In this document: in pieces, positions 20,001 through 59,023 of the stretch
Layout: every line of letters begins with the position of its first letter
How positions within the stretch are numbered: position 1 is the first letter of the stretch
Assembly (NCBI GenBank): GCA_001661515.1
Contig: LUVW01000023.1
Coordinates: 321,475 to 385,474 of the forward strand
Direction of reading: 5' to 3'
DNA length: 64,000 nucleotides
Source: Capniomyces stellatus
Lineage: Eukaryota > Kickxellomycota > Harpellomycetes > Harpellales > Legeriomycetaceae
Notes under the pieces: generated by a model
What the model saw: the letters and a program-made list of their open reading frames with translations, nothing else
What the model was told of the DNA's origin: nothing
Database searches by the model: none
Made by a program: the position numbers and the translations under genes

Positions 20001-20541
20001 CCTTTTTTGCACCTTGTTTCTTATCCTTACAAAGCGTATCCCCCCTATTCACCACTGCTCCCTTGTACATTATTTTTCTCTTAACTGTGCTGTCAAGTAT
20101 GTTAAAACTCGGCATCTTCTTCCCGTTGTTATTAACTGCTTTCTTTGCAACTTTTGGTGTCTCTAGTCCACTGAGGCTTGCTTTAACCTCCACCTCCGCT
20201 TCCACTGCGGTATTGTCTTCCTCTTTCGCCCTCTCTTTAGCTTTGGCGCCCGCTTTAACCTTCTCTGGCTCCTTTGCTTTACTATCAGCCTTAACCTTAA
20301 TTTTGTCTTTATCTTTTTCCTTGCTCTTTCCCGCTTCCTTGACTTTGTCTTTAGCTTTGAGCTTCGTCTTGTCCTCGTCCTTCTCCTTATCTTTATCATG
20401 CTCCTTGTTCTTTGATATTTGTCGCTTCACGCGCTCAATATCCTTTTTCACAACCTGCCGCATTTCTTCTATTGTATCGCTTTCTTCCCTCTTTGTTCCA
20501 ATGCTCCTCTTTTTGCCCACAGCCTTCAATTTAGAGCTCAT
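14029..20541 (-). CDS. giant Gds1-type winged-helix protein with APSES-like domain, 2170 aa
   Basis: Single uninterrupted frame of 2170 residues. Residues about 1-130 are a Lys/Glu/Asp-rich charged tract (KEKDKDK repeats). Residues about 228-325 match the fungal Gds1 winged-helix fold: RDKVFIAILRALMLNGN, PSSPKELANLIM, LGGATPYATVSSRISQHFKR and RKILYYL. A long disordered Ser/Asp/Gly-rich middle follows, including an unusual LDLDLDLDLELDM run near residue 1080. Residues about 1520-1620 read RLVENGYVNASTLLEAGG, ERNIVLSLEVGR and GTWVPLPRARALAATC, the pattern of KilA-N/APSES DNA-binding domains (Mbp1, StuA). Near residues 1920-2005 is a Cys/His-rich stretch (YCYHCCAFCCLNCYYHH) of unknown fold. Family knowledge and architecture point to a nuclear transcription regulator; its targets are unknown. 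The ATG at 20539-20541 has an ACGCGT box about 30 bases upstream. I am confident it is coding and Gds1-like, less so about the APSES assignment. Confidence 0.85.
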   Translation of the reverse strand: MSSKLKAVGKKRSIGTKREESDTIEEMRQVVKKDIERVKRQISKNKEHDKDKEKDEDKTKLKAKDKVKEAGKSKEKDKDKIKVKADSKAKEPEKVKAGAKAKERAKEEDNTAVEAEVEVKASLSGLETPKVAKKAVNNNGKKMPSFNILDSTVKRKIMYKGAVVNRGDTLCKDKKQGAKKASVDKPQQGSTKTRAESVMKQTENKTVERIIKLTNRTKSGELTTKMNYDFKKLYNDDSRDKVFIAILRALMLNGNKPSSPKELANLIMQNGLTVLGGATPYATVSSRISQHFKRVASAPTTRKSVLGRVANADNPRKILYYLISQDGSGPDYGDEYIEEKVYVNSDRASGTGDRQKRLVIVNSNTEESNIEGRGKGKIKRRDSQAPLSDVSSSDNNEMGIRNGRYNMTRGKIGSLGSGSMLSRNCSSDVSEVGSESGPGSEPSDGERGDGDIVENIASKRMYKSTDGDFLGIGNLYLGSLSSSSKGDPRQVLRSSSESRQYMGHSNDYSNGYGNSYSNGYENDYENGMYRANEFGKSEADDEIAKLAPNSPTKYGYKSGTIIASHAKRDIEKASDRVEHVLSRIKTGVKSDDDSYSIIYNENLDRCRQGRVGMEQYDSVLGSNVETDSSKVARGAKGAVKMYGGFGALNVTKRSTSDSGARTKQNIEKMFEMEDLDDESQDQECRNSNGEGVHIGYRDGGDLGEESEDCGEMEIDSGLENGGKSGVSCGKDWSRLKIVNPRYNGNSFSRKLHKKYKPDESKHDTFYELDYNCADSEAKIKLEAGVQNYRMREYSLDSSYLKFDKLKNSIKYKNRHKQLDLTDDLQDGETVANDDHRSSSASAIEGPNIRLGRGKWVPRPKVLIGEMEEPVAGLDGGGRARARLPENVRSYSGLNISDTRRSYLDSEYDSGECGEQETGGDTRVNCREYKSRVSDKAIEDGSGLDNLDVIGGFELGQPICDRSRKGSLVDYGAVVGATDLGRAGSGPSSSSLGDLRDKWVENKDQAGPSGAGSGEKYSSSKQMEESDFDSDSSSRTLRLSKPNPQPATATSTKAESNMGIGMEIDMDMQLNMNMDLDLDLDLELDMIPEMNRQISPANAKETLGSSWKDSEIMSLTELENLLNDGGSKLKDGYAFLNAANEAAAQAALNVNVNVNVTETDDEKGTPRIRTRTRTRSDSASVHQGAESGSVHTAGAVPSTRDNANESRTPKLDVMTADVFAMTQGSSDTDDSLTERSRAVNYKTPPTTPYQLMPPTLHTKNVPIINNSTHLDVDTNTTVIDENSLARHTADPTNSISNWPSRDGCVSVALPRSSADTNPVVEVGIHQQPTTQPHHATQENSDGLAEDLEPNEKVEEGCRVAEIESTENKDVGHLDSMDMDSSTNKGKNNNPSNKSTQSIQHRPQHQTQNKVQVQDSTFNDLFKDFYPLPVMAAATVPTKIPITPRTVLTVVETVPVYITVINRLIPADPSYTHREKHGDPFNTTNPKRDTTSSGNRVSDTSGHGGLHGRSEHTMNAANGNSGISPTDSKAPNSVITRLGNNSTVCQSFRLLRLVENGYVNASTLLEAGGVSSEQERNIVLSLEVGRFKWRRPNSQLCGTWVPLPRARALAATCSLSNRLGLFLNDNLESYFPSPLPSSFIRHVIMPYLVPSFLPLFPNTSSNNNSTLPDTVNTDTTAACFDQNIHSDAPVPFADISSTANSHPPRIEYTPLAQNNTKISENSPSAKDEPMVNAETHIPLRVNTQNLILTNTTGSNINEPKPNSASNAATIERPKTESQKCLRKRMWIQSLTKSIARHSDTGRVNSDAKIISDSRRSSKPEISNIADLTSTNPDPLGSSGTTYKRPLDIDSIIAKALESLPEPNNSRSTKHTIGFLSTPQKAKFKTLIVRLLKRKSHIDQATYHNVPVSANYLATQLSKLVAGLYCCDQHLSRKTLYLKLLAILGCYSYTKQPPIARNSDTNPNSSLVSPKPTKKTFFKRISVLGQNHTTYCYHCCAFCCLNCYYHHSNTSLPSNPTHPNKQINSSSPKKRKFSDLEINTTTVKSEAVSPVRYNTRRNSSANKLPHFTLPTPSKNTPKSTQNENSTKKILRLGNNAVSRLPRSASERKAKPPICQSNLFIDKNHLFDCVGKSSKSPKIPTFPKKPKTLLKHNSSHHSYSFASLDYSMSNLILL

Positions 20542-23500
20542 TTTCGTACCTTTTTTTACTTGCTCAGTGTACGCGTTTTTCCTGCTTTATGCCCCACCTT
20601 CGTACACTATTCTTTGTCGTATATCAACCGTGTCTATCTTTTCTCCGTATCTCAATATCGTTCGTTGTTGCTGTTTTCTATGTGAGAGCGCGTGTATAAG
20701 TTATTGCGCGTTTTAAGGCTGTTTTGTTTGCTTTATCTCCTATTTATATATAGGGCATCACTACTGCAACCTTTTCTTCAAATAATAAAGGTCGAAACTT
20801 TAAATACACATATACCGTATATATATATATATTTATTTATTTCTATGGCGTGTGTGAAGCTTTGTTAAAGCAGCAAGTTCAAATGCGTCCAATTGGCTGT
20901 ATGCTCAAGTTGCGATTTCAAGCTACCCCTATAGTCCAAACTCTTGTTCTGTACTTTGCTGAATTCCCTTAACGAGCGATCGTTTTTCAACTTGCCCTAC
21001 TTTCTTTCTAAACTGGGTCTAGTATTATTTCTCTTCTTTTTCTATTGACTAGGCCGGTGAGGTTGGAGTTAACTGTTTTTACCGGTTTTACTTTTCAAAA
21101 AAAAAAAAACGATATTTACTTTTGCCTCGCTTTTCCACAGGCTATTTATTAACGTGCCTTGATATGTTATTCCCTTATTCCTTTAGTTCCTACTTGCTTG
21201 TACCAGCTTACAAGGTTGTGTGTATCAAACAAAGCACGCCTTGCTGATATAATTATCTCAATGCAATAGTATTATACTTTTAAAGCTTAGTTAAATGCTG
21301 TTTAGTTCAGTTAGTAAGCAAAAAAAATAAAAAAGACAACTTGGTAATTTTGCAGAGTTAAAGAAAATTGGATTTAATTCATTTCAGTTCAAATGTAACT
21401 ATTGATTTTGTTTTTTTTTAATTATTCATCAATACTTTACTTGTGGATAAAATTAAATGTAGAAAATTAAATACTGTAAAAGCGGTTTAATTCAACTATT
21501 TTAAAGTCGTAAATTGGTTTATTATTTCTTTTATTAGCCAATCTATAATTGAAATAAGCCAGGTTCAAACCAAATCCTCCCATTAATCAATCTAAAAAAA
21601 ATTGTCTTATTTTCGAGAAATTTAGTTACTCAAACTCGCTAGGAAATAAACGAAATATTGTGAAAATCACGAACACCATTCTGTATAAATGGTTTATGGT
21701 CATCGAGTCAAAATAGTTACCTATTGGTGCGATTCGATTATTATCAATCATAACCACTGGACAACACCATTCAACTCTATTTCTTGCAAATCACTCCAAT
21801 ACAATTTCGACCTGATAACATTTGCTAGGTCGGTACACACCACTTTAGCACCGTCTCGCTAAATTTATTGCACTTCGCCAAGCTACTAATGGCAACGTTT
21901 AACAAGTGGGGAGGAAAAAAAAATTTTCTCTAGCCAAAACCTAGTACGATTATACTTTTGTCAACGCAAACTCTTTTCGGCATTTCATGTTCAACATACA
22001 AACAGGCTTGGTACAGCAATTGCGGCAAAAAAAAAAAAAGCAAACCCCTTTTGCGTATTTATAATTTTGCGTTTTTTTTATTTTAAAAGAGTAGTTTTTT
22101 TTTAATTTCGTTTTTTTTCCTTCTCCCGAAAATATTGCAACACTTTTTCTTGTTTTGGCTCTAATTGAGGTTGGAATATTGCTTTTACTCTTTTTTATTT
22201 TACTTCATTATTATTGTTATTTTTTTTGAGCAGCTCAAAGACTTCAAGGTGTTCTTTGTATTGTCTCCCAAACCTGCCCTGGTAAATTATTTTATTTCAT
22301 TCTTATTCATTGCTTAACATCGATCAACCAATGATTTAGTACCTCCTGCATTTTATTTGTAATATACTTCATGTTAACATTCAGGTATTAGTAATTTCGA
22401 TTTATTATCAAGCAATTGATTTTAACTTGACATTCCATTCCAGCAGTTTTTTTTTCTTAACTCGAGCTTCTAATTCGTGTACAATTTATTCGATATATTA
22501 ATTACAAGAACCTATTTTCTTATTATTAGCTTTATTGTCCCTATTCAAGTGCATGATTACATAATCACGGACAAATGTTTTTTCAACTAAATAAAACATT
22601 TCTCTCATTCGTAAATAAATACCACCATTCTACAAAGTTATTTAAATCCATAACATTTTGTGTTATAAATCAGGATGCATTTATGTAAAATAAAATAAAA
22701 TCAACTAAAAAATTTGAAGCCAGAGGCTAGCATAGTGGTGATATTAGGAATACTACCCTCACCAAGGCGTCGATTGGTGCAAACCCTGTGAAGTCCATCC
22801 ATCCATCGTACCATATTCAAGCAGCACTTCGTCAGAAGCAGGAATAATGAATGTGAGGTCTTGCTGGGTTGATCTTTTTCTTTCTCTTTTTCTTTTTGGG
22901 TTGGCATTTAAGCGCACTTGGAAGATAGAACAGATAAATGCTTAACAAATGGTTTGATTGTAAATCTAGCAACTGGCTCAGGTTCAGGTGTGCTCTTGTA
23001 ACAATAATGCTGCTCACTAGCCTGAATAAATCTTGGAATACACTATTATTGCCGATGAGTCATGGTCCCGATAGTATTGCATACAGTAACCACATACAAG
23101 TTACAAAGTATTTTGGTGAGGCTGGTATACACCCAGCATTAGAGCGCTGACTACAAATATTGCACATTACAGCAGCATATCATGATATAAATTGTTCTGG
23201 TTTTAGCTAGCTGTGCTAAAAAGCAAAAGTATGTTTGATGATTAATCAAATTGTTATAAACCAGATATAATAAGTCTGACAATACGTGTAAATAAAATGA
23301 AGAAAGGTAACGATAAAGCTGTTTGTAAAGGCAAGCGCAAGTGCTATTACTGGTGGATGTCCCGAGCTAGTAGCTTCAAGTATGTCTGTGGGACTTGTTC
23401 AAGTGCATTATTGTTTTCATTCGCTGTGGTTGAATGGTATTTTCAAAGATGTGCATAGTGGCAAATTAAATAGAGCTATTTGGGCATTGAAAGGCAAAAT

Positions 23501-28132: not shown

Positions 28133-29623
28133 CTATTGGAACAGGTTGGATAAAGAGTGGATAAATTCGGACTTGTTGGGGCACTTCATTAAGCCCTCGC
28201 CAACCAAAACAGCGCCCACGTTGGAACCCTTGTAGATAAGAGCGTCGTTGGGATTTATGATTCCGCTGAGAGCCATAAACAAGACTTTGGAGTTGGAAGG
28301 AACGAGTTTGGAGAGTTCAAGGGTAGTGTTCATTTCGACAATAAAGCTTCTCAGGTTTCTGTTGTTGACGCCAATAATCTTGGAGTTTGCTTGAAGCGCG
28401 GTTTTAAGTTCAAGTTCGTTGTTGACCTCAACCAGCGGTTCCATCCCAAGGTCGCGCGAGTAGTTGACCAGCTCAACCAGCTTCTCGAGCGGCAGCAGAG
28501 CCACAATCAGGAGCACCGAATCGGCTCCAGCCAATCGAGCCTCAGCGATTTGGTAAATGTCAAAAATAAAATCCTTTCGCAGAACAGCTGGTCGATTCTC
28601 CATCCCTTCGATTGCCTTGCGAGCCATTACCAAGTCATCCAAGTTTCCCTTAAACCACTTTGGCTCAGTCAACACGGATATCCCGCTTGCCCCTCCATTC
28701 GCATACTCCAGCGCTTGCTTGCATGCTACCACCTCAATGTTTATGTTTCCTTTGCTAGGCGATGCCCGTTTTATTTCTGCCACAACCGACAGTCCGTTTC
28801 CGTTTACTAGTCGCTCGTAAAAGTCTATTGGCTGTGGTGCCAAGCTTGGCTGCATTCTCAGCATCTCCTCCAGCTGGTCAAACGACTTTCCCGCAACCTT
28901 CTTGCTATTCTCAACATCCATTATACGCTGCCTGTAAATCTCCTCAAGAATATCCATCCCCAGCTTCTCCTTCTTCACCACCTTTTCATCCGCACCAGCA
29001 TCAACACCATCCTCTCCGCCTCTTTTTCTTATCTCTTCCTCCCAAGTCCCACAGCTCAGATCCAAAAAGTTCCTGAACATCAATATCCCATGTTCCGACA
29101 AAAAACTCTCTGGGTGGAACTGCACCCCTTCCACTGTATATCTCTTGTGTCTTGCTCCCATCACTATTCCGTTGCTTGTCTTGCTCGTTATCTCCATGCT
29201 TTCTGGCAATGTGCTTTCTTCACACGCCAACGAGTGGTATCTTGTAACCGTGTATCCAACCGGAATCCCCTTAAAGCACCACTTTTCGTCGTGGAATATC
29301 TGCCCCACTTTTCCGTGCACCACCTGCCCAGCAAACCCTACTGTACCTCCATAGTACTCAAACATACATTGCAACCCCATGCAAACTCCCATTATTGGCA
29401 CCTTTCCTGCAAAGTGCTTCAACACATCAAAACACACTCCTGTATCTTCTCGTGGATGTCCTGGCCCCGGCGACAACACTATGTGTGTTGGGTTCTTTGC
29501 CTCTATCTCTTCAACCGTAATCTTGTCATTGCGGTATACTTCTACTTGACCACCTGCCTTGCAGAGATATTCATACACGTTCCAAGTGAAGCTGTCGTAG
29601 TTGTCTATCAGTATTGTTGTCAT
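28133..29623 (-). CDS. TRP3: bifunctional anthranilate synthase component II / indole-3-glycerol phosphate synthase
   Basis: Single-exon frame of 496 residues. Residues 1-195 are a class I glutamine amidotransferase: ILIDNYDSFTWNVYEYL, LSPGPGHP, the nucleophile Cys81 in GVCMGLQC, and His171/Glu173 in VQFHPESF. This half supplies ammonia to anthranilate synthase component I (TrpE, not in this window). Residues about 255-496 are an indole-3-glycerol phosphate synthase barrel with VVAEIKRASPSKGNI, LRKDFIFDIYQIAEARLAGA, EPLVEVNNE and IGVNNRNLRSF, which carry the catalytic Lys and Glu residues. The chain stops right after the barrel, so the third domain common in filamentous fungi (phosphoribosylanthranilate isomerase) is absent, as in yeast Trp3. 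Role: two steps of tryptophan synthesis in the cytosol. The ATG at 29621-29623 directly precedes the conserved TILIDNYD. Confidence 0.95.
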   Translation of the reverse strand: MTTILIDNYDSFTWNVYEYLCKAGGQVEVYRNDKITVEEIEAKNPTHIVLSPGPGHPREDTGVCFDVLKHFAGKVPIMGVCMGLQCMFEYYGGTVGFAGQVVHGKVGQIFHDEKWCFKGIPVGYTVTRYHSLACEESTLPESMEITSKTSNGIVMGARHKRYTVEGVQFHPESFLSEHGILMFRNFLDLSCGTWEEEIRKRGGEDGVDAGADEKVVKKEKLGMDILEEIYRQRIMDVENSKKVAGKSFDQLEEMLRMQPSLAPQPIDFYERLVNGNGLSVVAEIKRASPSKGNINIEVVACKQALEYANGGASGISVLTEPKWFKGNLDDLVMARKAIEGMENRPAVLRKDFIFDIYQIAEARLAGADSVLLIVALLPLEKLVELVNYSRDLGMEPLVEVNNELELKTALQANSKIIGVNNRNLRSFIVEMNTTLELSKLVPSNSKVLFMALSGIINPNDALIYKGSNVGAVLVGEGLMKCPNKSEFIHSLSNLFQ

Positions 29624-30651
29624 TTTATTTTTATTTATCCTTGTTACTTCCTTTGTCTTTTTTTTACTTTTACAATTATTAATTTGTTTTTTTTCTGTTG
29701 ATTTCTTTTCCTTTTACTTTTTGTGGATTTAGATGGCGAGTCCAAATACGTAAAGGTATATGTCGTGTATATATCAGCTCCTAAAAAGTATTTATTTATG
29801 TTTTTGGTTTCCTTTTATAACAAGAGGGTTTAGTTTGTTAGCAAAGCTGTATTCTCTTTATTTCAGTTTTTTTCACTTCAAAAAAAAATATATATATTCA
29901 TGAAGAAAATGGTTATTGTTTGAATTTATTTACTTTACTGATTGTTGGTTCTGGAAATAATCAACAATAACCAAAAAGCTAAGCGTGGATTTATTCGATG
30001 CTTTTAGCAAATGAGTTTCTATATAGCCCAATCTCATTAAGGAATTTCACCACTAATGACATGGAATTAAATAGCAAGATTCTTCAAAGTGAGTGAGGAA
30101 TAAGGTAAAAAAAAAAGTCGAGTTTGGTTTTTAACATTATGATGCAATATAAAATCAGTCTAAAATTGATTCAACAACCAAGTATTTTCGATTTAACCAT
30201 TTCTATTTAATTCAAGAATAAAAAAAAAGAAAAAAAGAACAATTCGATTCTCAGTATTGCCCAATCTTTAATTCCAAAACGACTTCAACTTGGCTTTAAT
30301 TTAGTCATTAAGCACAAAAATTTCCTGTTTCCTGGCTTACCATTCACTAAATCGTTATATGATTCATTAAAAAAAAAATTATTTTATTAAATGTTAGTCA
30401 GTAAAGTTGGCAAAATGAAGTATAACTTGCTACTTTAATTTCTGGAATAAAATAAAAGTCTGATTTGATTAGATCCAATTGAACACAACAACGTTAACAC
30501 ATCTCGGTAAATAACAGTTAAAAAAAAGAGCATCAAAGTCAAAATCATTATCACAGTAACTTGAGGAAATCTCACTTGCACTGATTTGCAAAAGGAATGA
30601 AAAGTAGCTGTCAAGTTCAAATCTAAAAAAGCCAAGTAATAAAAAAAAAAT
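29624..30651. other. TRP3 promoter region and intergenic DNA
   Basis: About 1 kb between the TRP3 start and the tRNA-Val gene, AT-rich with T-runs just upstream of TRP3. I found no TGACTC-type Gcn4 element that I could place with confidence and no gene. Confidence 0.5.
30642..30650 (-). terminator. RNA polymerase III T-run terminator of tRNA-Val
   Basis: Nine A on the plus strand, read as nine T on the minus strand, begin two bases after the tRNA 3' end. A run of four or more T is the standard Pol III stop signal. Confidence 0.85.
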
Positions 30652-31013: not shown

Positions 31014-34000
31014 TTACTGGAGTCTCATGTACACCAGGTAATAGGCGTGGACAATTGGGACGTGAGGAATTTTTGCAAACTCGGTGTTTAAAACAAAATC
31101 AGGCCGAGCAGGTTTCCCAAATCCAACAGTACTGGTGTTGCTGATGGCTCTGGCGCTTTCGTAGCCACTGGGAACAGTTACAATGAGTTCTTTGAGACGC
31201 AGCACGTTTTCGCTGATGGCAAAGCCAATGTCCTCGGTGAGCAGCATTCCAAGCGGCCAAAGTCGGTTTTCAGAGTCACGGACATCTTGAACACCAACGA
31301 TAAGCAGTCCGCTTGGACTTAGCTTTGTGGCTGTTGAGACTACCAGTTCGGTGAGAAGCTTTCTGTACGTTCTAATGATTGCTTCAAACCTGTTCGAGTT
31401 CTGGTTAAGATTCGGAGGGTTTAGGCTCCATAGTTCGGCTGGGGTGATGTGTGGGATAACAAGCAGGGAAAGTGGCGGTGTTTTGATGTCTTTAGTGTGA
31501 ATTGGGAGCATTTCATTTGGATCTTCTGACCCCCCTGATTCGGGGGTTTGAGCCTTTGTGGTGTCAACTGCGATAGATTCCATACCTGTAGATTCAGATG
31601 TAGGGAAATTCTTGATAACCCGTTCAGGTGTTGATGACTTGACTGATCTAGAGTCCGGTTGAACAGGCTCATTACTAGATACACACGAATCCGAACCCGA
31701 GTCTGAATTAGAATCAGAATTAGGATCAGAATCGGAATCGGAATCAGAATCGGAATCAGAATCGGAGCTAGTTCTAGAGTTATAACCAGAGCTGGAATCC
31801 GAGTATGTGTTTGAGGAAGAAATTTTGGCTTTAAGTTTTGTTCTGTTGTGGTGTTTTTGTGTTCGAGTGTTGTTGGCGATTCCAAGATTTTTCAAATAAG
31901 CAACGTCGTTAGTTTCTTCGCCTAATTCCGAGATAAGACCCTATTTATATAACAAATACAAATAAACAATTTAGTACAGTTACTTGTAAAAAAGATAAAC
32001 ATTATGAAATAAAGAAAAGAGGAGGGAGGAGGGGGGGGGGATAAAGAGAAGAAAGAAAGGAACTAACCAGAGCCAACAATGCCTGCTTGTTGTTGCGGAT
32101 CGTTTCTAGGCGTTTTTGTTCGTATGATTTCTTTTGGTTGTTGTCAGCAGAGTGTGTGGGCTTTGGACTGGTCGAATTGGTTGGTCCGTTTGAATTGGTG
32201 TTGAGATGAGGGTTGGTAGGATCGTGCATGGTGGTGTTTGAATCAGAAGCAGGATTATCGGTGGATGGGGAGTTTACCGACAATTCCAAAAGCTCCCAGT
32301 TGGAGTAATCGCGGCCAAACCTTTGGACCATTCGCGAAACAATGAGATTTGCAAAGGTGAACAGGCGAGTGTTGTTTTTGGGATCAGATTTACCAACATG
32401 GAACGTCCAAACACTTCCCATAACCACGCTTTTCCTGTCTATTGGTGATGGTTGAATTGGCTGGTTGATTGTGCGGCAGCAAAAGCCGCTGGCAGCGCAA
32501 ATCTCAGCCAAGACGGCGGGCGAGTTTCCAACAACTTGGAAGCTGTAGTCTTCAAGTGCTGATAGCCTGTGAGATGGGAAGGAGCTGTTGGGCAGCGCTG
32601 GTGGGTTTGGGATTTTTCTTAATGTGGCAATGAACTCGTGGGTAAATACCAAAAAGTCAAACTGTACACACAAATGGGTACCCAACCCAAAAGCCTGGCA
32701 GTACCTCTGTCTCTTGATTATCTATGGACAAATAAACATGCGTATTAGCAAACAAAAGCAAATAAAAGAATGTATAAAACAAATTATATGAAAGAAATAA
32801 AGCAAAAAAAATAAAAAAAATAGTTACCAGCTCATCGATGTCAAAGCCATTGTCGACATAGTTTCTAATTAGCTGGAAGCCAACGGGGATATAAAAGCAT
32901 TGAGCCCTGTTGTCGCCAATTCCGAGCGTGCAGTAGTGGTGCATTTTCAGGAGTCTCCAGGTTTCGTTGATGACGTTGGCCATTTGGACTTGGAATTCTT
33001 GAGGGCCAGGAAACCTGCTCAGGTCGCCATTGATGTGGGAGGAATAAGCGACACAGTCCTTGTAAGGCGGATGAGTCAAAACATGGTCGAAAATAGCATC
33101 AGTTGTTGAGGAGGGTTGCGATGAGTTGTTAAAGAAGAACTGGGCGTGGTTCCCCATAATCAAATTCAGGTTGCGCGAATCGCCATTGAAAATCAGAGGT
33201 CTCAGCTTGGCGGGCAGCTTGTTTGCCAGAGATACGGGGACAGCAAACGAACAATTGCGTTGAGAGAGAGCTATTGCAACGGGGTTAATATCAATGCCAA
33301 CACACTTTCTTCCCAGCAGAAACGACTCAATGGCATCAGTTCCTCTGCCCAAAAAGTTGGAAAGTACAAGCCCTCCACTCCGGGTGTACCGAATCAGAGC
33401 TCTTCTGACAGTTTGGGGCAGCCAGGTGCCGTGGTAGTCGGTTCCTGAATGCGAAGCCCATCTCGGTGCTCTGCCAGGAATGTTGAAGTATGTTGAGTTG
33501 ACAGGCAGGGACCACATCATTGCTTTTGTCGGCCCATACGTGCTTAGTAGCCCAAGCGGCGCAGCTGAGCGCAGAAAGTTTGGACGAGGATTGAAGCTGT
33601 TTGACTCCAGTTCTGTGGTTACCGTCAAGTCAGACGCATTGCTTAGATTGACAGCTGACGGCGGCGGAATGCACGAGTCTCTTGTAAAGTAGGGGCTGTG
33701 CAGGTAGTCGTCAACAGCCCCCATATACTCGCCCGCACTGACACCCATTATTCTTGTAAACTCGTCCCCGCCCATCTTTAACTTTGCATTTGGCTCCGGA
33801 CCCAAACTCATCATCTGCGGGTTTGCTGTGCCAAACGGATTTAGGGCCTCCAGACTCATTCCACTCTCGTCGCCATTGTCAGAAACGTTGCTGGTATCAA
33901 GCGTATACTCGTTCTCAAACGTCACCAGTCTATCACGTAGTGAGTCCTTGATCTTGGACAGCTCCTGGCTGTTCTTGCTGTCCAAGATCTCGCCTTTCGG

Positions 34001-37000
34001 CATCCACGAACTTGCGCTGTTGTAGCAAGGCTCGCACATTATCACCTGTCCATACCCAGTCCGCCAGTTTGAACACTCGGTTGTCCAGCAATACGAACAG
34101 TACACGCCAGCCACCCGCTCAGCAGCCTCAGCCATCTGGTTTGGCACCTCTGACCGTCCAACCAGCTTAAACGCCCTGTCCTCCACCTCCTCATCAGCCT
34201 CCTCGCCCTCATTTCCACCACCCGTTTCGTTTGTCTGCTCATCCCCATCCCTGCCCTCGCTTCCTTCTATATCCACGCCATCCATGATGCTTTCGTCCCA
34301 ATCAAGTGCTTCTTTTGAGTACGATGGCCGGAAACACGATCTTCTGTGTGGATGCTGGTTAGGAAAGTCATACGCATAGCAGTCCAAACAGACATTGAAT
34401 CCCCCGCTATTAATCCCGTAGTTTGTAGTGATGTTCTGACACTCACTGCACGTCCACCACGACATCGAATTGCTTACATTTGCTCTACAAACTGCGCACT
34501 TGGTCTCCACCTGCAATTCCACCCCCACCAGCTGATCCCCATTCTCCTTGCCCCCATTTACTGCCAGCTGCCTGCTATAGTTGCTTTTGTGCTTTGTATA
34601 ATGGATCTGGCAATAGAAGATAAATCCCGCCTTGAACTTGTCCAACGGCATTCCGGAGCACATCACGTGGTAGCTTCTATGGCATTTAGCGTCAAAACAC
34701 CCTATTGTCGCCCCCTTCATCCTGCATCTTGCACATTTCTACAATTGGTTATTCATCCGTTTGTTAAATTCTACAATCTAATAATCAATCACACAGCTAT
34801 TTGGGCTATTTAAACTTACTATCAGCCGTCCACGAACAACCGCCTTTGACACATTGTACCAATCCCACTGGTCTGCTTTGTGTAGCTTTGTCAGCTGGTT
34901 TACACTGCTAATACCACTGCCAGTAATACGCTTATGTTTGTAGGATCCACGCGCTGGTGAGTCTACTACAACTTCTGGCGAGTACCTGGCACAGGAATCA
35001 TGGACCCAAAACCTTTTTTGCTGTGTCTGTTGGCTCCTCTTTTCATCAGCTTTGCTGCCCCCCACACTCGTCTCTTTATCGTCGCCTACATCGGGCTGCT
35101 TGTTTGGTGCTTGTGTTGCCTGAGGCTTCTTCTTGCTCTTTTGCTGAATCAAAAACGGAACACTGCTAATAAACGCTCCAATGCTGAACTGCTCATCGTA
35201 GCTATCATACCCTTTGGCTGTGGCGTCTACACCTGTTTTTTCAAACTGTTCAATACCCATTTCCATCATTTGGCTTGACTGCTCCTTTTCTCCACACAAC
35301 GCACATCTCTGTTGCGAGTGGTACATTGATCTTAAAAACTGGATATGCTCCTGGCTCTCCAGCAATCCAATCTTTGGTATCTTTTGATTCCTGTCCTTTG
35401 TCACATTCACCTTGCATACATCCCCACCACCAAACTCATCAAAGGCACGTTTATTAATATCCATCCCCATCTCCATTTCCACCTCTGCTCCCACTTTTAC
35501 CATTTCCATACTAGCACTTGGACTACCGTCACCAACTACAGTTTGGCTCTCCCCTTCTCTATCCTCACTCTCGAAACCTAGAAAACTGGTATCATACACA
35601 TCTTTGACATACTCTACAACCGAATTTGACAATATCAGTTGTGACACTTTTACCGATTGTTGCTCATTCTGCTTTAGCGAGTCCTGCTCACTTGCTTCTG
35701 GTGCTGCATTTTCAACCTCAGCCTTTGACTGCTCAACTATTTCCTGGATGCTCAATATTGGCGATCGAATAAATTTTGTTGGTGGATGCTGATGGTTAGT
35801 TGGGAATAAACCGGAATAACACCTATTGTTTTGTTATTTGTAAACTTTAGTTGATCTCTCTTATTTCAATAATAACAATAAATTATATATATATCTAGCT
35901 GTTTTACATGAAGCACAGATCAAAGCTGGAATAGTCATAGCCCTCTGACGGAACCTCACATTTGCTGCAGTAATATCGGAAACAACTGATAACTACACTA
36001 CACTCGTTGCAATAAACCATCCACGTCTTTGACTCTAATAAAGCATAATCAACATCAATACCAACATTATTACCATCATCACGACTACTTGGCGCCCAAC
36101 CCTGTATATCAATTTCATATAATTATTGTTTGCGTGTTTTTTTGTTTTGTTTTTTTTTTGTTTCATTTTTACCAGCTGTGTCGTCATTCAGATTTTTTTG
36201 TGAATCTATAAACACAAGGCTCTTTTCTAGCATGTCAATTGTTTGTTGCAGCGATTTGTTTCTCTCCGTTCGACTTTGTGATTTAGTTGAACCCGTTTTG
36301 CCCGTTTCGTGGGTAGCTGTCCCATTTTCGTTTTTCTCATTTGGCTTTAGAAACCTGTTCATATTTTGCTTTTTCAGCCTCTTTTTGGGCAAAATCCCGA
36401 GAAGCCTTCCATCCTTGTTGATGGTTTCCGTCAACACTTTGATTTGCTTTGAATTGAAATCAAACCATTCCCGACTATTCCCTTCCTTTGCCTTACCCAC
36501 AGCATTTCCAGCATTTCCAGTATCGACTTCAATGACTTTATCACCAGAACTGTCACCATTATCTTCACCAGTGTCTTTCTCGGCTCTAAATTCTACCAAA
36601 ACTCTCCCCTGTGCTATCGATACTATATATCCATCCTTCCATCCATTATTCTCAACGCTTTCCTCGTCTATTAAATAATACTTGCAACTCATCCGAGCTC
36701 TAACCTTATCCCCAATCTTGTAAAATATCTTGTAGTCCTGCATACTCATTTCTTTATGTGCCAGTTGAATTGTTCCAACATCCTCTGGATACAACACCTT
36801 TTGGTTCTGCTGGTCAAATGCATCCGATATTGCTTCTCTAACAGCAAGTCGAACCGATAAAGGCTGTTGTTTACTTTTCAAGGTCTTTTTTCTATCTTTA
36901 TGCCCATCTATTTGTCATTACCATATTATTGTTATTGTTATTGTTATTATCACTATTGTCACCATTATTATTGTTATATCATATCGTATCATACTATTAT

Positions 37001-40000
37001 CACTATTAACATTATCACTATTATTGTCATATAATATCGTATCATACTATTACACTTACTATATTCTATGCTGTCCTTGTTCAGAGCCATCAAAAGTGCC
37101 ATTTGGTTGACCATTCTGCTATTCACCATTAGTCTTGGCGAGTTCACATCCACCCATTCGTTATAGTGCTCAGGCCAGCCTTCGTATCGAATATAGAGTC
37201 TGTATTTAACCTTCTGTTCAACCAGTCCTGGCCACCACTCGTTTACTTGCCGACCTCGAACTGCAACCATCAAATCTTTGGAAAAATGAACCGCATAACT
37301 CGACAATTTGGCCTGTTGGGGCAGGGAATGAAACTCGCCGTCTAGCTGCTCTTGTGCAATTGGTTTGCATCCGCCTTCTGGGATAGGTTCTTGTGGATCT
37401 CGTCGTTTTCGGCCTGGTCTTGAAACCTCAACCACAACCTTTTTTTCCTTCAACTTTGTGCTGTTTCCGCTTTTTTCTTTTACTTTTTCTCTTTCTTTTT
37501 TTGCTCTAGTATCTCCAACACCCTTGATTTTGCTTTTCGCCAGTACCTTCTTTTTCTTTTGCTTCTTTTTGGGCTTTGTGTAGTTTTTGTAGTTTCTGTA
37601 CAACCCATCTCCACTGCTCCAACTACTACTGCTGCTACTGTCATCACTATTGTGTTCACTACCTTCAACTCCACTATCACTATCGACTACATCGCTACTA
37701 TCACCATATTCAACACCTGAATCCACCAGTATTTCGTCGCTTTTACCCACTTGATCTCCCAAACTCTTCACTCCCGCCTTTTGTCTACTCATAGCTTGAG
37801 TTTCTCTGTACTTTTGGCTAAACACACTTCGTTTCTCCTTTTCTGCCTCTCTCCTTTCCACCACCTCCTCCTCAACCCTTTCTAGATATTCATTGTGCCT
37901 TTTAAGCAAATCTATAACCACCATTGTCCGCTGCTTTTCGTCAAGCTCAACTACCTCACCGCCGCTATTGCCGAGCTCGCTGCCCGGACTATGCTGTCTG
38001 ATCCGCCTGCTCTGTATGTTTATCCACTCGTTGTACTCTACGCCCCAGTCCACATAACTAACCAGCAGCTTTCCCTTCCATATCGACAAAATCCTTCCCA
38101 AATAATACTTTCGATCTAGGTTCAATATCTCCACCAGCTGCCCAATCACAATCCCGCTTACACTACACACACTGCTCTCCCCACTAAACTCTTTTTGCCT
38201 GTCTGTTTTCAACATTGACCACACCAGCATTTCGGTCTCCGCCTTAGAATACTCCTTATTGTCGTATAAATGCTTGAATTCCACTTTCTGTTGCCCCACT
38301 GCCTTTTTCCCAGGCCTTGCTTTGGCTTTGACTTTGGCTTTGATATTAATCTTGGATATGACCTTGGACTTGGCTTTAGTCCCCGTTGCTTCTGCTTTCT
38401 CTCTTTCAGCCTTAAATTTAAGACGACCTATCAATACATTGCTTTTCTCAATGTTTTTTTTCATCTTTTTCAAATAGCTGCTGACTTTAGCCTTTTTCCC
38501 CACCTTTCCGCCAACTAATTTTGGTCCCAAGTAAGACTTGACACCTCCTTTACTTTTCTGAACCTTGACTTGTGCTTTTCCATCGTTCGGTAATCCACCA
38601 GCCCCACTTGAACTACCAATCCCACCTAATTCACCAATCCTACTTGAACCACCAACTTCATCCGAGCTATCAAACTCACCCGAGTCACTTCCACTCTCAC
38701 TACCACTCCCAGCCATATTACCATCTTCAAAATTCAGTTTTATTCGCTTCGACTCTGTATCTATCCATTCGTCATAGACATTGCCCCACCCTTTGTACCG
38801 AACCTTTATTTTCCCTTTTTCAAGCTTCATTGATTTTGCCTTGTACCACTTTCTGTCTGCTGCCAGAACTAACAGCCTACTCCCCTGTTTATACTTACTA
38901 TACGTCTCATTCGCTTCAATAAACCCTGCCTCGTTTGCCAAATAACTTGATATATTTCGCGTAAAAAACGCTCCTGTGGTTACCATCCCCCCATTACTCT
39001 TTTTCTTTCTTTCTTTATTACTCCTACCCGGCTTCGTCTGATCGTCCTGTTTGCTCCTGTTTGCTATCTGCTTCAATCCTCTTGCTGAATTATAAATATC
39101 CTGTTTGTTTTTCTCTCCATTTTCTACATTATTTGCCATTTTCCCGCCTTCAAGATTTGAACCACCATTTGGCTTGCTTTGACTCAGCCCTGTATCTTTT
39201 GTGCAAATATAGCTACTCGCTTCTACTTTTTGCTCTTTTCCATCACCTTTACTCCCATTCTTGGTATAACTCGGGCCTATGTCTCTATCCAACCTTGCAT
39301 TCACACTTACCACGCCGCCTCTATCCAACCCCAATGTAGTTTTGTCTATACCAGCATCTGCTTTATCATATCCATCCATTCCTGCAACCTGACCCATACC
39401 ACCACTGGTGCTTGATTTACTTTCTATAGCTATATTAACGGGTTATTTATTGGAATTTAATTTCTTACTAATTTAACATGTTTAGTTTGCCATAAGTTCC
39501 ATAGCCAATTACTAGTTCTTTGCCCCCCCCCCCTTCTCCCCCACTTCCTCTCTTTTTTTTTATTCGGTTTACATTTGCTTTTAAAAATATACTTACAACT
39601 CGACTGACCTTTGCCACGCTTCAAAGCTCTTTCGCTTAGCCTCTTTTCAAATTTACGTATTTTGAATCTTGGAATTACGTCAGAAAACACCATTATACAC
39701 CCTTCACATACCGATAACTCTTTATTCACCTCCAATAGCTCGTGAGGGTGCTTAATTACACTACAACTACCACAACTTGCGTTGCTTGATGCTGTTTGAT
39801 TCTCAACAATAGTCCCATTTACAGTCTGACACTCCAACTCTTTGTACCTACTTTCTGTTGAAAGCTCCACTTCTGTGTTTGTTTTTTCAGACAGCTCGAG
39901 CCCTATTTTCTCCGCAGTATCTTGACGTAAAGTCTCCTCCAGTGTCTCCACCTCGCTTGTTGGTACTTTTCTTGGTCTACCACGCTTCCGCTTTTCCTTT

Positions 40001-40284
40001 GGCTCTTGTCCGATATCCCCGATACATATCAACTTTCTAGGCCTCCCTCTTTTCCTACCACCCCCTATGTTGCTTTCAACATTACTCTCTACCCTACCCA
40101 GCTCAGTGCCCTCCATTGCTTCTTGGCCAGCCAATTCAAAGCTCTTTTGGTTACCACCATTATTTCCACCGCCCCCAAATCCTGCTTTAAAATCACCTAC
40201 GGCCACCGGTGCCTCAGCTGACTTTATGCTTGTCGGATCATCTTTATTTTCGAGCTTATAGTCACTCGAATCTACATTACTCAT
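31014..40284 (-). CDS. multidomain chromatin-reader DNA methylase, eight exons, about 2804 aa
   Basis: Exons on the minus strand: 40284-39597, 39429-37060, 36907-36173, 36034-35908, 35822-34820, 34738-32828, 32721-32068, 31940-31014; all junctions keep frame. Domains in order: AT-hooks KRGRPRK (about residues 77 and 100); Cys4 cluster (171-196); Tudor-knot/chromobarrel-like repeats near 411-461 (YKGWGNVYDEWID), 670-710, 965-1015 and 1080-1190; ZZ finger across exons 4-5 (YCNEC, YYCSKC, FDLCFMCY); extended PHD across exons 5-6 (CALC, WVHDSCA, CARC, GATIGC, SYHVMC); a second ZZ-like finger (about 1722-1770); GATA-like finger CSYC-x17-CEPC (1855-1880); Rossmann methylase with NFLGRGTDAIE, GIDINPVA and DHVLTHPPYKD (2040-2280); Asp/Ser tract; and a C-terminal block with GLLIVGVQDVR and WPLGMLLTEDI. 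Inferred role: SAM-dependent DNA methylation guided by histone and DNA readers in the nucleus. Target base (N6-adenine or N4-cytosine) is not readable. Exons 4-8 belong together beyond reasonable doubt; exons 1-3 rest on matched splice phases. Alternative: two adjacent genes. Confidence 0.78.
31681..31775 (-). repeat. coding (GA-T-TC)n microsatellite giving an Asp/Ser run
   Basis: Inside the last exon of the methylase gene, GAATCx/GATTCx-type hexamers repeat and encode alternating Ser and Asp. It forms a long acidic linker between the methylase module and the conserved C-terminal block. Confidence 0.85.
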
Positions 40285-44381: not shown

Positions 44382-46580
44382 GCTCAGTTATCTAGCTCCT
44401 ACTGTTTTTTTCTATATACACATATTTTATTGAAATTCATGATATAGTCTGTTGATTTGGCTATACTTTTTGGTTTTAAATTCATTATTCGATTATGAAT
44501 AAAAGTATAAAGATTCAAGTATAAAGTGCTGCCATAGACGATAAGTTGTCAATGAGAATAAACATCAATTTTATGATAAGCAGGCTGCAAATTGCAATCA
44601 ACAAGGGCACTTGGCTTCTTTGACTGGTGGAACATTTTTGCCGATCTTGTTTTCGTCTGTGCGGTTATAAACCTCAACTCATTAAAACTCACAACTTGGT
44701 TGATGGTAGGTTAATAAGGTATCTATCCTTGCCTGACATATCTTGGTGGCTTAATTAGGACAAATACAGGCTTCTGAAAGCAGCAGCAGATACTGTAAAA
44801 TGTATTCAAAAATAATAAAACAGCGCTGGTGAGCAACTAGTTGGCAAAACTAAACTAAGTAGTACAAAGCATTCATCCAATTGGGTCGAGCAGGAAAACT
44901 TTAGCACAATTACTTTCTAAAACAATTGGCAGAAAGTGAGAAAAGAAGGAAGGAAGGAAAAAAAAAAAAAAAAAAAAAAAAANNNNAAAAAAAAAAAAAA
45001 AAAAAAAGAAGGGTGCAAATTGGAAGAAAAAATTGCTAATCGATATCCAATAGAAGATGAGAGATTCGATTTTTTCATCTTGCTCTTTTTTAGACTAATT
45101 TTTCAATTTGAAAAGTGAAACTAAGATTAGTCACAGTCTAAACCTGTTAATGTTGGGTTAAATCACATTCAAGTGATTGATCCCAATCACGGTTATTTAA
45201 GCATTTTCACCAAACTTGATAATTTTGGACTTGATAATTTTTTAAGCTTGATAATTTTTTGAGCTTGGTTCTAGAAATCTGAAAAAAACTGTCTGGTTCA
45301 GTCGCATTTGTAAGCTTTAGTATATAAACAGCCAGTAGCTTTTTCCTTTTTATTTATTGCCAGTTATAGTGGTAATTTTCTTTTCTTATTTTTAATAAAA
45401 AACGATAAAGATAAACGAAAAGTTATTACAAGTACTCTTAATGTATTTTATTGGCAGTGTACAAACATAGACATCTTTGAAATACATTTGTAAAATGTGC
45501 TAGAGTTGAGGGAGTGTGTTGACAACAAGAGATGAATGCTAGGTCAATATGCTTTGTAAAATCGGTACAGTCAATAGATATGGATAAGCCTAGTCGAGTG
45601 TAGCGAAAATAAAAGTTGTCATAATGGGTAGAGTAATGTAAAAAACATATGCACTTTTATGACCACCACCAACTCGAAGATACAAAAATAAATAAAAATA
45701 ATTCTAGGTTAATGCCAAGTAGGTCGCGTTTATTTTAAATTATAAAAAACGGGATGTAGAGCAAGTAAAATGAAAGGGTAAGGGAGGGGTGGAAGAGTAA
45801 GGAGGGGTGAGATCTGTTTGAATTAGTAAGATTTCAAATTAGAATTTGAGCCAACTAAAAGTGCAAAAAACAGAATAAAAATTATATGTACTATTCTCCT
45901 AAACATAAAAATTAAATAAAACTTGCTTAAGGATAAAGAACAAGGATTATTTTTAACAGTATTCAGCGAATGAAAGAATAATAACACTGAAACGCCTTAT
46001 ATGTCAAGAGTAATAACAGTGGAAACATAATTTTTTTATAATGGTCACGGTAACATGGCAAAAAAAAACTTGTTTTTAGTGAAAAGGTGAATTGAAAAAA
46101 AAAAAGTGGAAAACAGTTAAAACGACTTTAAAGATTAGGATTATGAAAAATTGGTTGCGAAAACAGAAGTTCATGCAATTTTTCATGAATTTGATTCGCC
46201 AAAATATGGGGTTTTCAGCACAGCTTTAGCTTTTTAATAAATTGATTAGATGGTGAATAAAAATGCACTCAATATTTTTCTCCAAGTATCAAAGAAAATT
46301 TTTTTTTTTTTGCTTTGGCAAAATGAAGATAGTGTTTATACCATTAGCTTAAAACCCAGGACAAAGTAAAAGCAAAATATAAAGCGATTGAGTTTCCAAG
46401 AATTTGACAAAGATAAAATATAAAGCCAAAAAGTTTTTCTTTGCTAAAACCAAAAACATCTCTTCTTTTCTTTTACAGAGTTCAGCGATTCTTTATAATC
46501 AGTTTGCTCTAATAAAAAAAAGAATACAAGTATAAGAAATATAACAGTAGACTATATACAAACACACACAACTATAAAAG
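44382..46580. other. intergenic region with an assembly gap
   Basis: About 2.2 kb between two plus-strand genes. It includes a poly-A run interrupted by four N at 44983-44986. The right end is the SAM synthetase promoter and leader. No gene or RNA is visible. Confidence 0.5.
44959..45007. repeat. poly-A tract containing a 4-N assembly gap
   Basis: Long A homopolymer with NNNN at 44983-44986 in its middle. The true length of the tract, and possibly other sequence, is unresolved here. Confidence 0.97.
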
Positions 46581-47732
46581 ATGGGAGAAACTTTTCTATT
46601 TACATCAGAGTCCGTAGGAGAAGGACATCCAGACAAGATCTGTGATCAAATCTCAGACGCAATTCTTGACGCATGTTTGCAACAGGACCCAATGTCCAAG
46701 GTAGCTTGCGAGACAGCAGCCAAAACCGGTATGATTATGGTGTTTGGAGAAATCACAACAAAGGCAGTGTTGGATTACCAAAAGATTATCAGAGGAGTGA
46801 TTAAGAGCATTGGATATGACGATTCAAGCAAAGGGTTTGATTACAAGACCTGCAATGTGTTGGTGGCGATTGAGCAGCAATCACCAGATATCTACCAAGG
46901 ATTGGTGCAAAACGGAATGGACATTGAGAACATTGGTGCTGGAGATCAGGGAATTATGTTTGGGTATGCTACGGACGAGACACCTGAGCTGATGCCATTG
47001 ACTATTGTTCTTGCACACAAACTCAACATGAAGATGGCAGAGTTGAGAAGAAGCGGTGAGCTTTCGTGGCTGCGACCAGACTCAAAGACACAGGTTACAG
47101 TGGAGTACAAGAACGTTGACGGGGCAATGGTGCCTTTGAAGGTAAACACAGTCGTCATCTCCACACAGCACTCACCCGACATCAGCACGCCCGAGCTGAG
47201 AAAGGAGCTGCAGGAGAAGGTTGTGGATGCCGTGATTCCAGCCAATTACCTGAGCGCAAACACCATTCTCCACATGCAGCCATCTGGCAAGTTTATCATT
47301 GGAGGACCTCAAGGAGACGCTGGACTTACTGGCCGTAAGATCATTGTAGATACATATGGTGGCTGGGGAGCCCACGGAGGTGGTGCCTTTTCAGGCAAGG
47401 ATTTCTCCAAAGTTGATCGATCTGCTGCCTACGCTGCCCGGTGGATTGCCAAGTCACTCGTTGCTGCTGGAATTGCCCGTCGTTGTCTGGTCCAGCTCTC
47501 CTACGCTATTGGTGTAGCCGAGCCCCTTTCCATCTACGTCGACACCTATGGCACCGAACAAAGACCAAAGGAGGAGATTCTCCAAATTATCAAAAACAAC
47601 TTTGACCTCCGTCCAGGTGTCATTGTAAAAGAGCTCGATCTCTTCAAGCCAATCTACCAAAGCACCGCCTGTTACGGCCACTTTGGTCGCGAAGAGTTTA
47701 ACTGGGAAAAACCAAAAACCCTAAAATTCTAA
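46581..47732 (+). CDS. sam1: S-adenosylmethionine synthetase
   Basis: Single-exon frame of 383 residues, the usual eukaryotic length. It makes S-adenosylmethionine from methionine and ATP in the cytosol. Signature blocks are all present: [20 protein letters not shown] at the N-terminus (methionine/ATP site), [18 protein letters not shown] (the ATP-binding hexapeptide region), [20 protein letters not shown] and [20 protein letters not shown] (the P-loop-like glycine-rich motif with the active-site Lys and Asp), and the C-terminal [12 protein letters not shown]. The ATG at 46581 is followed directly by the conserved [11 protein letters not shown]. Codon use shifts toward C-ending codons in the 3' half, as expected for a highly expressed gene. 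Its product is the cofactor for the methylase encoded to its left, but that proximity may be coincidental. Confidence 0.98.
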
Positions 47733-57726: not shown

Positions 57727-59023
57727 TGCTGCCTGCTCAATCTCCATACATTTTGCTTTTCGCGGAAAGTACACGCCAACACCAAATCAGCAATCAGCTG
57801 AACCTCAGAACTTTTGAGCCAGTCAGGTGCGAAATAGTCTGGAAATAAAATCTCTCCACTTTAATTCAACTCGCCTCCTTTTTCTCCTGCCTTTTCTTTC
57901 TACTGGTTATCCTTGTTGATATTTTAATTCGAAATCGCGTTGATGTTTAAATTGGCTGCGTTGAGATACCTTATTCGCCTATAATTTAGTTTTTTGGCGT
58001 TTTAGGTTATGTAAAAAGAACAAAGTACAAACACCAAAAAACAAACACCAAAGAACGAAGAACAAAGAACAATGACAAAGAATAAACATCAAATGACAAA
58101 AAGAAGAACCGAGTCCAGTTTAAAAACATTTCTGTGAATATTTAAAGTTAGGAACGAAAATGGTTGGCTACCTGTGGGAAGCTAGAAGCTGTAATCTGAT
58201 AACGATGATACAAAACAATTAAGATTCTGTAAATGCTTCATCAGTTCTTTTAAGTCAAAATTTTAACTGATAGCAGGTATGCTTCATGCTGGTTTCGTCT
58301 TTGGAAACAAGTAATGCTTTAATCATGAGTCTTACTCGAGCAAACGATATATAATTGAATTTGAGAAACATTGAGTTTAGTTTAGCGTTGTATGCTACAA
58401 ATTATGGAAATCACTGTAATTCAGACATCCAGACCTGTCTTTGCTATTCAGCTTGGGCTTCCGCTACTGCTCCATTTCAATTATTTTTCAAATATGTGAT
58501 ACTAGTTTGATGTTCTTAAACTCCAAGCTGGTGAGGAAAAGGCTAGTGAGGTGGCTATACCGAGTAAGGTTATAGAAATCAAAGTTCTGCCATTCCAAAT
58601 AAACGTTCAAATTATAATGAAATGGCAATAACATTCAAAGAAAGTTGAAAAGTTGATGATATTATTCGCCAATAATGTTGATTTTACAAAAAAAATAAAA
58701 AAAAGCCAATACTAAGGCCGCTAATTTTTCTTGGGTAAAGTATTTAACGCCAAACCAGGAGGAAATCTTTGCTTTTTTACTAGTCTGATTCCATTAACAT
58801 ATCTTGATTTAAATAGTTTTATTTTCCAAATAGAAAATTTATTTAATCGAGCTGATTGAAATTGATCAACAACAAGGATTGTTACAAATTTGAAAGCTAG
58901 AAAAACAGGAGAATCGAGTATACATACATATATAAATAAAACTGACGACAACAAGGGATACTACAAAGCCTCACTATACAGTTATTGTTGGAGTATTGGA
59001 ATTCAAAATTCTTATAGATTAGG

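Follow-up and report, generated by a model that had tools for sequence, protein, structure and literature searches.

What is encoded on the minus strand between positions 40284 and 31014 of a 64,000-nucleotide stretch of the Capniomyces stellatus genome (GCA_001661515.1, contig LUVW01000023.1, positions 321,475 to 385,474 of the forward strand; the whole stretch is called the window below)? An earlier note, made from the letters alone, had read what looks like many separate open reading frames as one spliced gene, in which histone readers are fused to a DNA methylase of bacterial type. Orthologues and profile searches support that description. Judging from the sequence, we put the probability that the predicted protein is an active chromatin-directed DNA amino-methyltransferase at roughly 55%.

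One spliced gene and its fungal family

Eight predicted minus-strand exons join to 8415 nt, or 2804 codons without an internal stop (40284-31014). The seven introns (167, 152, 138, 85, 81, 106 and 127 nt) are all GT-AG and phase-matched, with TAG as acceptor in 7 of 7, in agreement with the earlier description of eight exons and about 2804 residues. Exon 1 (39597-40284) begins with the ATG at 40284, encodes amino acids (aa) 1-229 plus one base of codon 230, and ends at the donor GTAAGT. It is followed by exon 2 (37060-39429; aa 230-1019), exon 3 (36173-36907; aa 1020-1264), exon 4 (35908-36034), exon 5 (34820-35822), exon 6 (32828-34738; aa 1642-2278), exon 7 (32068-32721; aa 2279-2496) and exon 8 (31014-31940; aa 2497-2804 and the stop). 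The frame is kept with an exon 4 acceptor ahead of 36034, whereas an acceptor ahead of 36101 breaks it and was rejected; exon 3/4 is the single doubtful join.

Junctions were examined by aligning the window protein with 19 selected orthologues. Junctions 4/5, 5/6, 6/7 and 7/8 lie within conserved stretches and are bridged in about 16, 18, 19 and 19 of the 19 orthologues, respectively. The first three cross a ZZ finger, an extended PHD (ePHD) and the methylase, which fits the earlier proposal that these domains are completed by splicing. At junctions 2/3 and 3/4 one flank is variable, but 8 and about 16 of the 19 orthologues, respectively, contain both flanks in a single protein. The weakest junction is 1/2, since an exon 1 probe matched only one of 127 long orthologues. 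In the Mycoemilia protein P0050, the first Tudor-like repeat is preceded by two AT-hooks and then a Cys4 cluster, the layout of exon 1 in the window.

Orthologues were sought in a collection of 5.8 billion proteins, which returned 157 and 154 matches. Every named match among those listed (by our own count, 116 of the best 120 of 157 and 115 of the best 120 of 154) was assigned, in our own placing of the genera, to early-diverging fungi, and none to Dikarya. The genera include Coemansia, Smittium, Mycoemilia, Basidiobolus, Massospora, Dimargaris, Syncephalis, Mortierella kin, Mucor, Rhizopus, Phycomyces, Rhizophagus, Gigaspora, Paraglomus, Spizellomyces, Gorgonomyces, Entophlyctis and others.

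The orthologue set consists of 127 retrieved proteins of at least 900 aa, all public gene predictions. Segment order was tested with six probes, for the ePHD, the GATA-like finger, the methylase, two post-methylase blocks and the C-terminal block. At least four of the six segments were found in 125 of the 127 proteins (all six in 105), and the order was that of the window in 125 of 125. An earlier version of the test, which included ZZ probes, had flagged 46 of 121 proteins as differing, with the probe for the second ZZ finger at the place of the first or the reverse, so these probes were left out. In 117 of the 125 orthologues, a Tudor-like segment lies ahead of the ePHD. The methylase is the best conserved segment (127/127, median identity 62.6%), while the two post-methylase blocks were matched in 122/127 and 119/127 and the C-terminal block in 124/127.

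The earlier note had suggested a search for orthologues with the same order in Kickxellomycotina and Mucoromycota. They were found there and also in chytrids, as single long proteins, which rules out a chance open frame and argues for one protein rather than separate reading frames. The observation of one spliced megaprotein gene is thus confirmed at the level of predicted proteins. The alignments add a point absent from the first note, namely that the reader-methylase fusion is, by sequence comparison, a conserved family of early-diverging fungi.

The methylase domain and its prokaryotic kin

The predicted amino-methyltransferase domain (about aa 2050-2316; 32608-33514; like all features of the gene, on the minus strand) extends across exons 6 and 7. 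Motif I, predicted to bind S-adenosylmethionine (AdoMet), reads NFLGRGTD (aa 2102-2109; 33335-33358), and F.GRGTD recurs in 122 of the 127 long orthologues. The predicted catalytic motif IV reads THPPY (aa 2196-2200; 33062-33076), with SHPPY in 127/127 long orthologues; IGDNR is present in 126/127. Motif I stands before motif IV, and the signature HPPY....YS....DLS is present in the window.

The PADLOC profile of type II methyltransferases (MTases), PDLC03376, matched the domain with 130.4 bits (E 2.4e-38) over profile positions 20-248 of 249. PF01555 (N6_N4_Mtase; cut-off 26.7), the one Pfam model matched by the spliced domain at E up to 1, scored 36.1 bits for the spliced domain, 30.4 bits for the exon 6 frame and 25.7 bits, slightly under the cut-off, in a six-frame search of the genome. 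In the host genome (24.5 Mb, 59 contigs), PF01555 matched this gene alone at E up to 0.001, and no second copy of the gene was found, one further stretch appearing only at E 0.235. These scores, together with the absence of a PF05063 match, bear out the earlier assignment to the bacterial N4/N6 DNA-methylase type rather than to MT-A70. The profile search by segment that had been proposed led from the methylase to type II MTases and PF01555; in the window protein as a whole, the Pfam models MBT, SAWADEE and N6_N4_Mtase exceeded their cut-offs.

Other methylase families were tried and rejected. For MT-A70 (METTL3, METTL4, AMT1), PF05063 had no match at E up to 1, and the motif is THPPY, not DPPW. 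For MetB, the window domain had no PF02384 match at E up to 1. A placement in Trm11, which the earlier note had named as the outcome that would count against it, was examined as well: the Trm11/TrmN family profile had no match, HPPY stands in place of DPPYG, and our eukaryote methylase profile scored -1.6 bits against an exon of the genome's own Trm11, so that the outcome is against Trm11 by sequence. The host genome has MT-A70 matches on contigs C25 and C34, of which the C25 gene is presumably Mta1-like, and a DNMT-type match on contig C1. No MetB was found there at E up to 0.001; the two PF02384 matches are, by motif, a PrmC-like gene and the Trm11 gene.

Relatives of prokaryotic type were found in Fusobacterium vincentii (L031), on an IMG/VR contig (L005) and as a metagenome protein (P0036). 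They share 31-34% identity with the window, also contain THPPY, and scored 187-210 bits, with best-domain scores of 209.8, 208.2 and 185.6 bits, with the eukaryote methylase profile, which, like the other MTase profiles built here, includes the window sequence. In the DpnII-type restriction-modification loci L031, L005 and L040, the HPPY methylase has the same domain nearly end to end, with the same motif order and signature, and adjoins an endonuclease gene. In contrast to the window protein, with its fused readers, the relatives L031, L005 and P0036 are free-standing proteins of 244, 245 and 309 aa without reader domains. L031 has the order Dam-type D12 methylase, DpnII endonuclease, Mrr-type gene and HPPY relative; in L005 the Dam-type gene, DpnII and the HPPY relative are consecutive. 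Dam-type and DpnII matches occur together in three of six loci (L005, L031 and L040), and these neighbours therefore point to DNA as the ancestral substrate. Phage records yielded one weak match for the window domain and two for P0036, and none for L005 at 1e-30, while scans of genome contigs for relatives found none.

A midpoint-rooted tree was built from 41 fungal-side rows (the window, 29 named fungi and 11 rows without organism name) and four bacterial-type rows, a small sample in which L031 and L032 are the only named bacteria and one branch is 9.16 long. The 41 rows split from the four with support 99/99. Smittium megazygosporum is the sister of the window (100/98), and Kickxellomycotina, Mucoromycotina and Spizellomycetales-type chytrids were recovered as groups. 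Syncephalis grouped with Glomeromycotina, Neoconidiobolus/Massospora came out close to Mortierellomycotina, and several of the deep branchings are weak or open. The metagenome relatives P0004, P0009, P0013, P0018, P0021, P0024 and P0027 fall outside all named fungal groups; in P0021 and P0027, the methylase shares a short protein with a PHD-type domain. The tree fits one old acquisition followed by mostly vertical descent, and we infer that the transfer went from bacteria to fungi.

L032 is a conjugative plasmid of Vibrio penaeicida that encodes a diverged HPPY protein, annotated as an adenine methylase, at 5001-5885. The match starts 162 bases upstream of the annotated start, and the annotation may therefore truncate the gene. 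The plasmid search matched 823 records, among which L032 alone was examined.

Reader modules, C-terminal region and neighbouring genes

The readers listed in the earlier note were all present, with three of the four Tudor-knot-like repeats in exon 2 and a weaker one in exon 3. Two AT-hooks (RKRGRPRK in both cases; 39967-40056), recognized from the sequence and below the cut-off of Pfam AT_hook, are followed in exon 1 by a Cys4 cluster (C171, C174, C193, C196; 39697-39774). Patterns similar to this cluster occur in P0118, P0095, P0126 and P0140, which with P0050 makes 5 of 12 proteins inspected. Tudor/MBT-like repeat 1 (about aa 409-460; 38738-38893) includes the Pfam SAWADEE stretch, repeat 2 (about aa 655-708) lies at 37994-38155, and repeat 3 (about aa 946-997; 37127-37282) contains the best Pfam MBT stretch. 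Their probes matched 117, 114 and 91 of the 127 orthologues, and that of the diverged Tudor-like repeat 4 (about aa 1082-1178; 36432-36722; no match to Pfam repeat models) matched 27, although probes of related repeats can cross-match one another.

The first ZZ-like finger (C1273, C1276, C1287, C1290, C1305, C1308, H1317, H1319; 35783-36011) spans exons 4/5. Its probe matched 119/127 orthologues, and a ZZ match stands ahead of the ePHD in 116 of 125. The ePHD itself (zf-HC5HC2H; 34601-35305; probe 125/127) is split across exons 5/6, and scores below the Pfam cut-off in exon 6 alone but above it in spliced orthologues. A second ZZ-like finger (34346-34498; probe 85/127) and a GATA-like Cys4 finger (34025-34099; probe 115/127) follow. 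In the orthologue alignment A1, the Cys/His columns of the former and the Cys columns of the latter are nearly invariant, and ZZ matches flank the ePHD on both sides in 57 of 125 orthologues.

Downstream of the methylase lies a conserved block (about aa 2369-2425, PIDRKSVVMGSVW...; 32281-32451; probe 122/127), which had no detectable similarity to the methylase profile (hhalign P 0.84). The stretch aa 2345-2360 was considered as a degenerate motif I and rejected, as it is gapped in most orthologues and the block that follows is unlike a methylase.

The end of the protein gave a different result. The earlier note had pointed to a conserved C-terminal block; its conservation stands, and beyond it the region (about aa 2650-2804; 31014-31481) is, by profile and predicted structure, a second, degenerate methylase half without HPPY. 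We base this on a profile match and on the same order of predicted strands and helices. With a methylase profile widened by divergent and prokaryotic rows, two C-terminal profiles, of residues 2317-2804 and 2470-2804, matched the second half of that profile with P 2.0e-6 and 6.8e-6, respectively, at 85-90% probability. Column-shuffled controls (n = 56 each) reached lowest P values of 0.036 and 0.033, with 2 and 3 of them below 0.05, and reversed controls gave 0.58 and 0.51, respectively. The narrow methylase profile reached probabilities of only 30%, 11% and 3% against the C-terminal half (P 5e-4, 0.003 and 0.017), and the first half of the methylase profile had no detectable match in the C-terminal region with hhalign.

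For the Phycomyces orthologue P0125, an AlphaFold2 model from 49 sequences had a mean predicted local distance difference test score (pLDDT) of 74.6, with 77-98 for C-terminal residues 821-930 and mostly 72-96 for the methylase blocks (loops 49-59). The modelled methylase has a strand at 522-527, a helix at 551-568, a strand at 569-577, a helix at 593-601 and strands at 604-612 and 639-645. The C-terminal block matches this predicted order, with a strand at 836-841, a helix at 848-868, a strand at 874-879, a helix at 893-904 and strands at 910-920 and 952-959. METTL14 is an inactive methylase partner in trans; by analogy with it and with Mta9, the C-terminal half is probably an inactive partner in cis.

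Other frames in the window were characterized by inspection. A single-exon frame on the plus strand (46578-47732), about 6 kb from the methylase gene, encodes a putative S-adenosylmethionine synthetase, probably a coincidence. On the minus strand, 28133-29713 encodes a putative anthranilate synthase glutaminase joined to indoleglycerol-phosphate synthase; no third (PRAI) domain was noticed in this frame. Many fungi have a trifunctional gene that includes the PRAI domain. A 1238-codon open frame on the plus strand (59018-62734) has several BRCT-like stretches, and an uninterrupted frame of 2185 codons on the minus strand (14029-20586) has many charged, low-complexity stretches.

Function, rival readings and significance

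As an active DNA amino-methyltransferase, the protein would, judging from the kinds of domain it contains, be held on DNA and on nucleosomes that bear certain histone marks by its AT-hooks, Tudor/MBT-like repeats, ZZ fingers, ePHD and GATA-like finger. The AT-hooks and the GATA-like finger would hold DNA, and the readers would place the enzyme on marked nucleosomes. The methylase domain would then methylate an exocyclic amino group of nearby DNA. Adenine N6 would be a more likely target than cytosine N4, because the kin adjoin Dam-type genes and a DpnII endonuclease. The C-terminal half, without a catalytic motif, would most likely be a built-in structural or DNA-holding partner, as MTA9 and METTL14 are in trans.

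Several observations weigh against this reading. Motif IV is HPPY, neither DPPY/NPPY as for N6-methyladenine (6mA) nor SPPY as for N4-methylcytosine (4mC), so that the methylated base is unreadable from it. Motif I has changed from LDQF and GTT in L031 and L005 (LDQF.GGGTT) to LSNF and GTD in fungi (LSNFLGRGTD in the window), and AdoMet binding is putative. Among the prokaryotic loci, L041 matches the Dam-type gene but not DpnII, and neither is matched in L042 (2.1 kb of upstream sequence, with another gene there) or L043 (0.65 kb of upstream sequence). The kin also exceed the cut-off of 22.3 of UPF0020, an RNA-methylase-type model, with 32.1 and 31.6 bits, compared with 93.9 and 84.4 for PF01555. 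In a fold comparison, the window-type fold was equally close to RNA methylases, Trm11 was not separated by fold, and none of the 50 matches listed was labelled as a DNA methylase; to our knowledge, the solved DNA enzymes of this kind are permuted. A sequence search of solved structures ranked ribosomal protein L11 and tRNA methylases (E 0.005-0.006) above CcrM (0.083). Finally, excerpts of PMC11258239 trace Mucor 6mA to MetB and Mta1, which leaves no assigned mark for a window-type enzyme.

The alternative that survives best, though we consider it unlikely, is a catalytically retired reader or scaffold that keeps the methylase fold for DNA or AdoMet binding. The departure of motif I from L031 and L005 would suit it, as would a second methylase half without the motif in the same protein, but the constancy of SHPPY and IGDNR in the long orthologues and the position of the methylase as best conserved segment argue against it. 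Next, and also doubtful, is an RNA methyltransferase acting on nascent RNA at chromatin, which the readers would bring to active genes for METTL3-like RNA methylation; the weak solved-structure search and the UPF0020 results slightly raised our estimate of it, and the neighbours of the prokaryotic kin point to DNA. Two or more adjoining genes, e.g. one for a Tudor/ZZ protein and another for a PHD-methylase protein, are highly improbable: exon 1 resembles only one of 127 orthologues and the database orthologues are themselves gene predictions, but four of the seven junctions lie inside conserved stretches, two more are bridged by several orthologues, all 125 testable proteins share the segment order, and P0050 shows the features of exon 1 before its Tudor-like repeats.

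We compared the chromatin-directed DNA methylase proposed here with known systems, using excerpts of the papers cited. The bdelloid N4CMT (PMC8885841) is likewise an amino-methylase that a eukaryote acquired from bacteria and that is joined to a chromatin reader, but it has a permuted order, SPPY and a C-terminal chromodomain, whereas motif I precedes THPPY in the window. According to the same source, the bdelloid N6_N4 methylase is without eukaryotic homologues and aligns solely with permuted bacterial enzymes. In Mucor lusitanicus, MetB (PMC11258239) is also a bacterial-type methylase kept in early-diverging fungi, but it consists of PF02384, which the window domain lacks at E up to 1, and PF20466 for target recognition. 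The Mta1/Mta9 (AMT1) complex pairs an active with an inactive methylase for DNA 6mA, Mta9 being called non-active (PMC11258239); its partners, however, belong to another family (PF05063, DPPW) and act in trans, whereas the second half of the window protein is in cis. Trm11/TrmN tRNA methylases share the class I fold and a similar predicted structure, but have DPPYG and THUMP, whereas the window has HPPY and no THUMP match among the Pfam matches of its exons.

The candidates of the Mucor deletion study were metA (PF05175), metB (PF02384), metC (PF05063), mta1, p1 and dmt1, and PF01555 and PHD are absent from the main text (PMC11258239). In the excerpts of PMC12695648, 6mA is found with H3K4me3 nucleosomes and AMT1 is treated, without mention of a window-type fusion. 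The table of a 2026 review (PMC13297926) gives MTA1c and MetB as 6mA writers, and PMC7862722 is, from its excerpts, a review of 5-methylcytosine. Full-text literature searches, mostly outside subscription journals, found no description of readers fused to an HPPY methylase, which earlier surveys may mention; searches by motif returned unrelated uses in the 15 of 98 matches inspected, and those by domain combination nothing, or known or unrelated papers.

A wider proposal is more tentative. The family may be a writer that predates the split of chytrids from terrestrial early-diverging fungi and was apparently lost in Dikarya, with readers, an active methylase of restriction-modification type and an inactive partner in one polypeptide. 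Its mark would have been attributed to other enzymes or missed in 6mA surveys, e.g. as 4mC, or as 6mA at sites chosen by histone marks.

Levels of 6mA are high in early-diverging fungi, and the search for the enzymes that write it proceeds one gene at a time. The protein is encoded in Mucor lusitanicus, Phycomyces and Rhizopus microsporus, where excerpts of the literature show 6mA to have been studied, and in the transformable chytrid Spizellomyces punctatus, as SPPG_04959. As the predicted histone-reading protein has an invariant catalytic motif, a coupling of histone marks to DNA N-methylation would be testable by one deletion. If true, this family would join the bdelloid enzyme as the second instance in which a bacterial modification methylase became a chromatin enzyme, and its distribution would be much broader. 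Hence, this family may be an overlooked writer of DNA marks.

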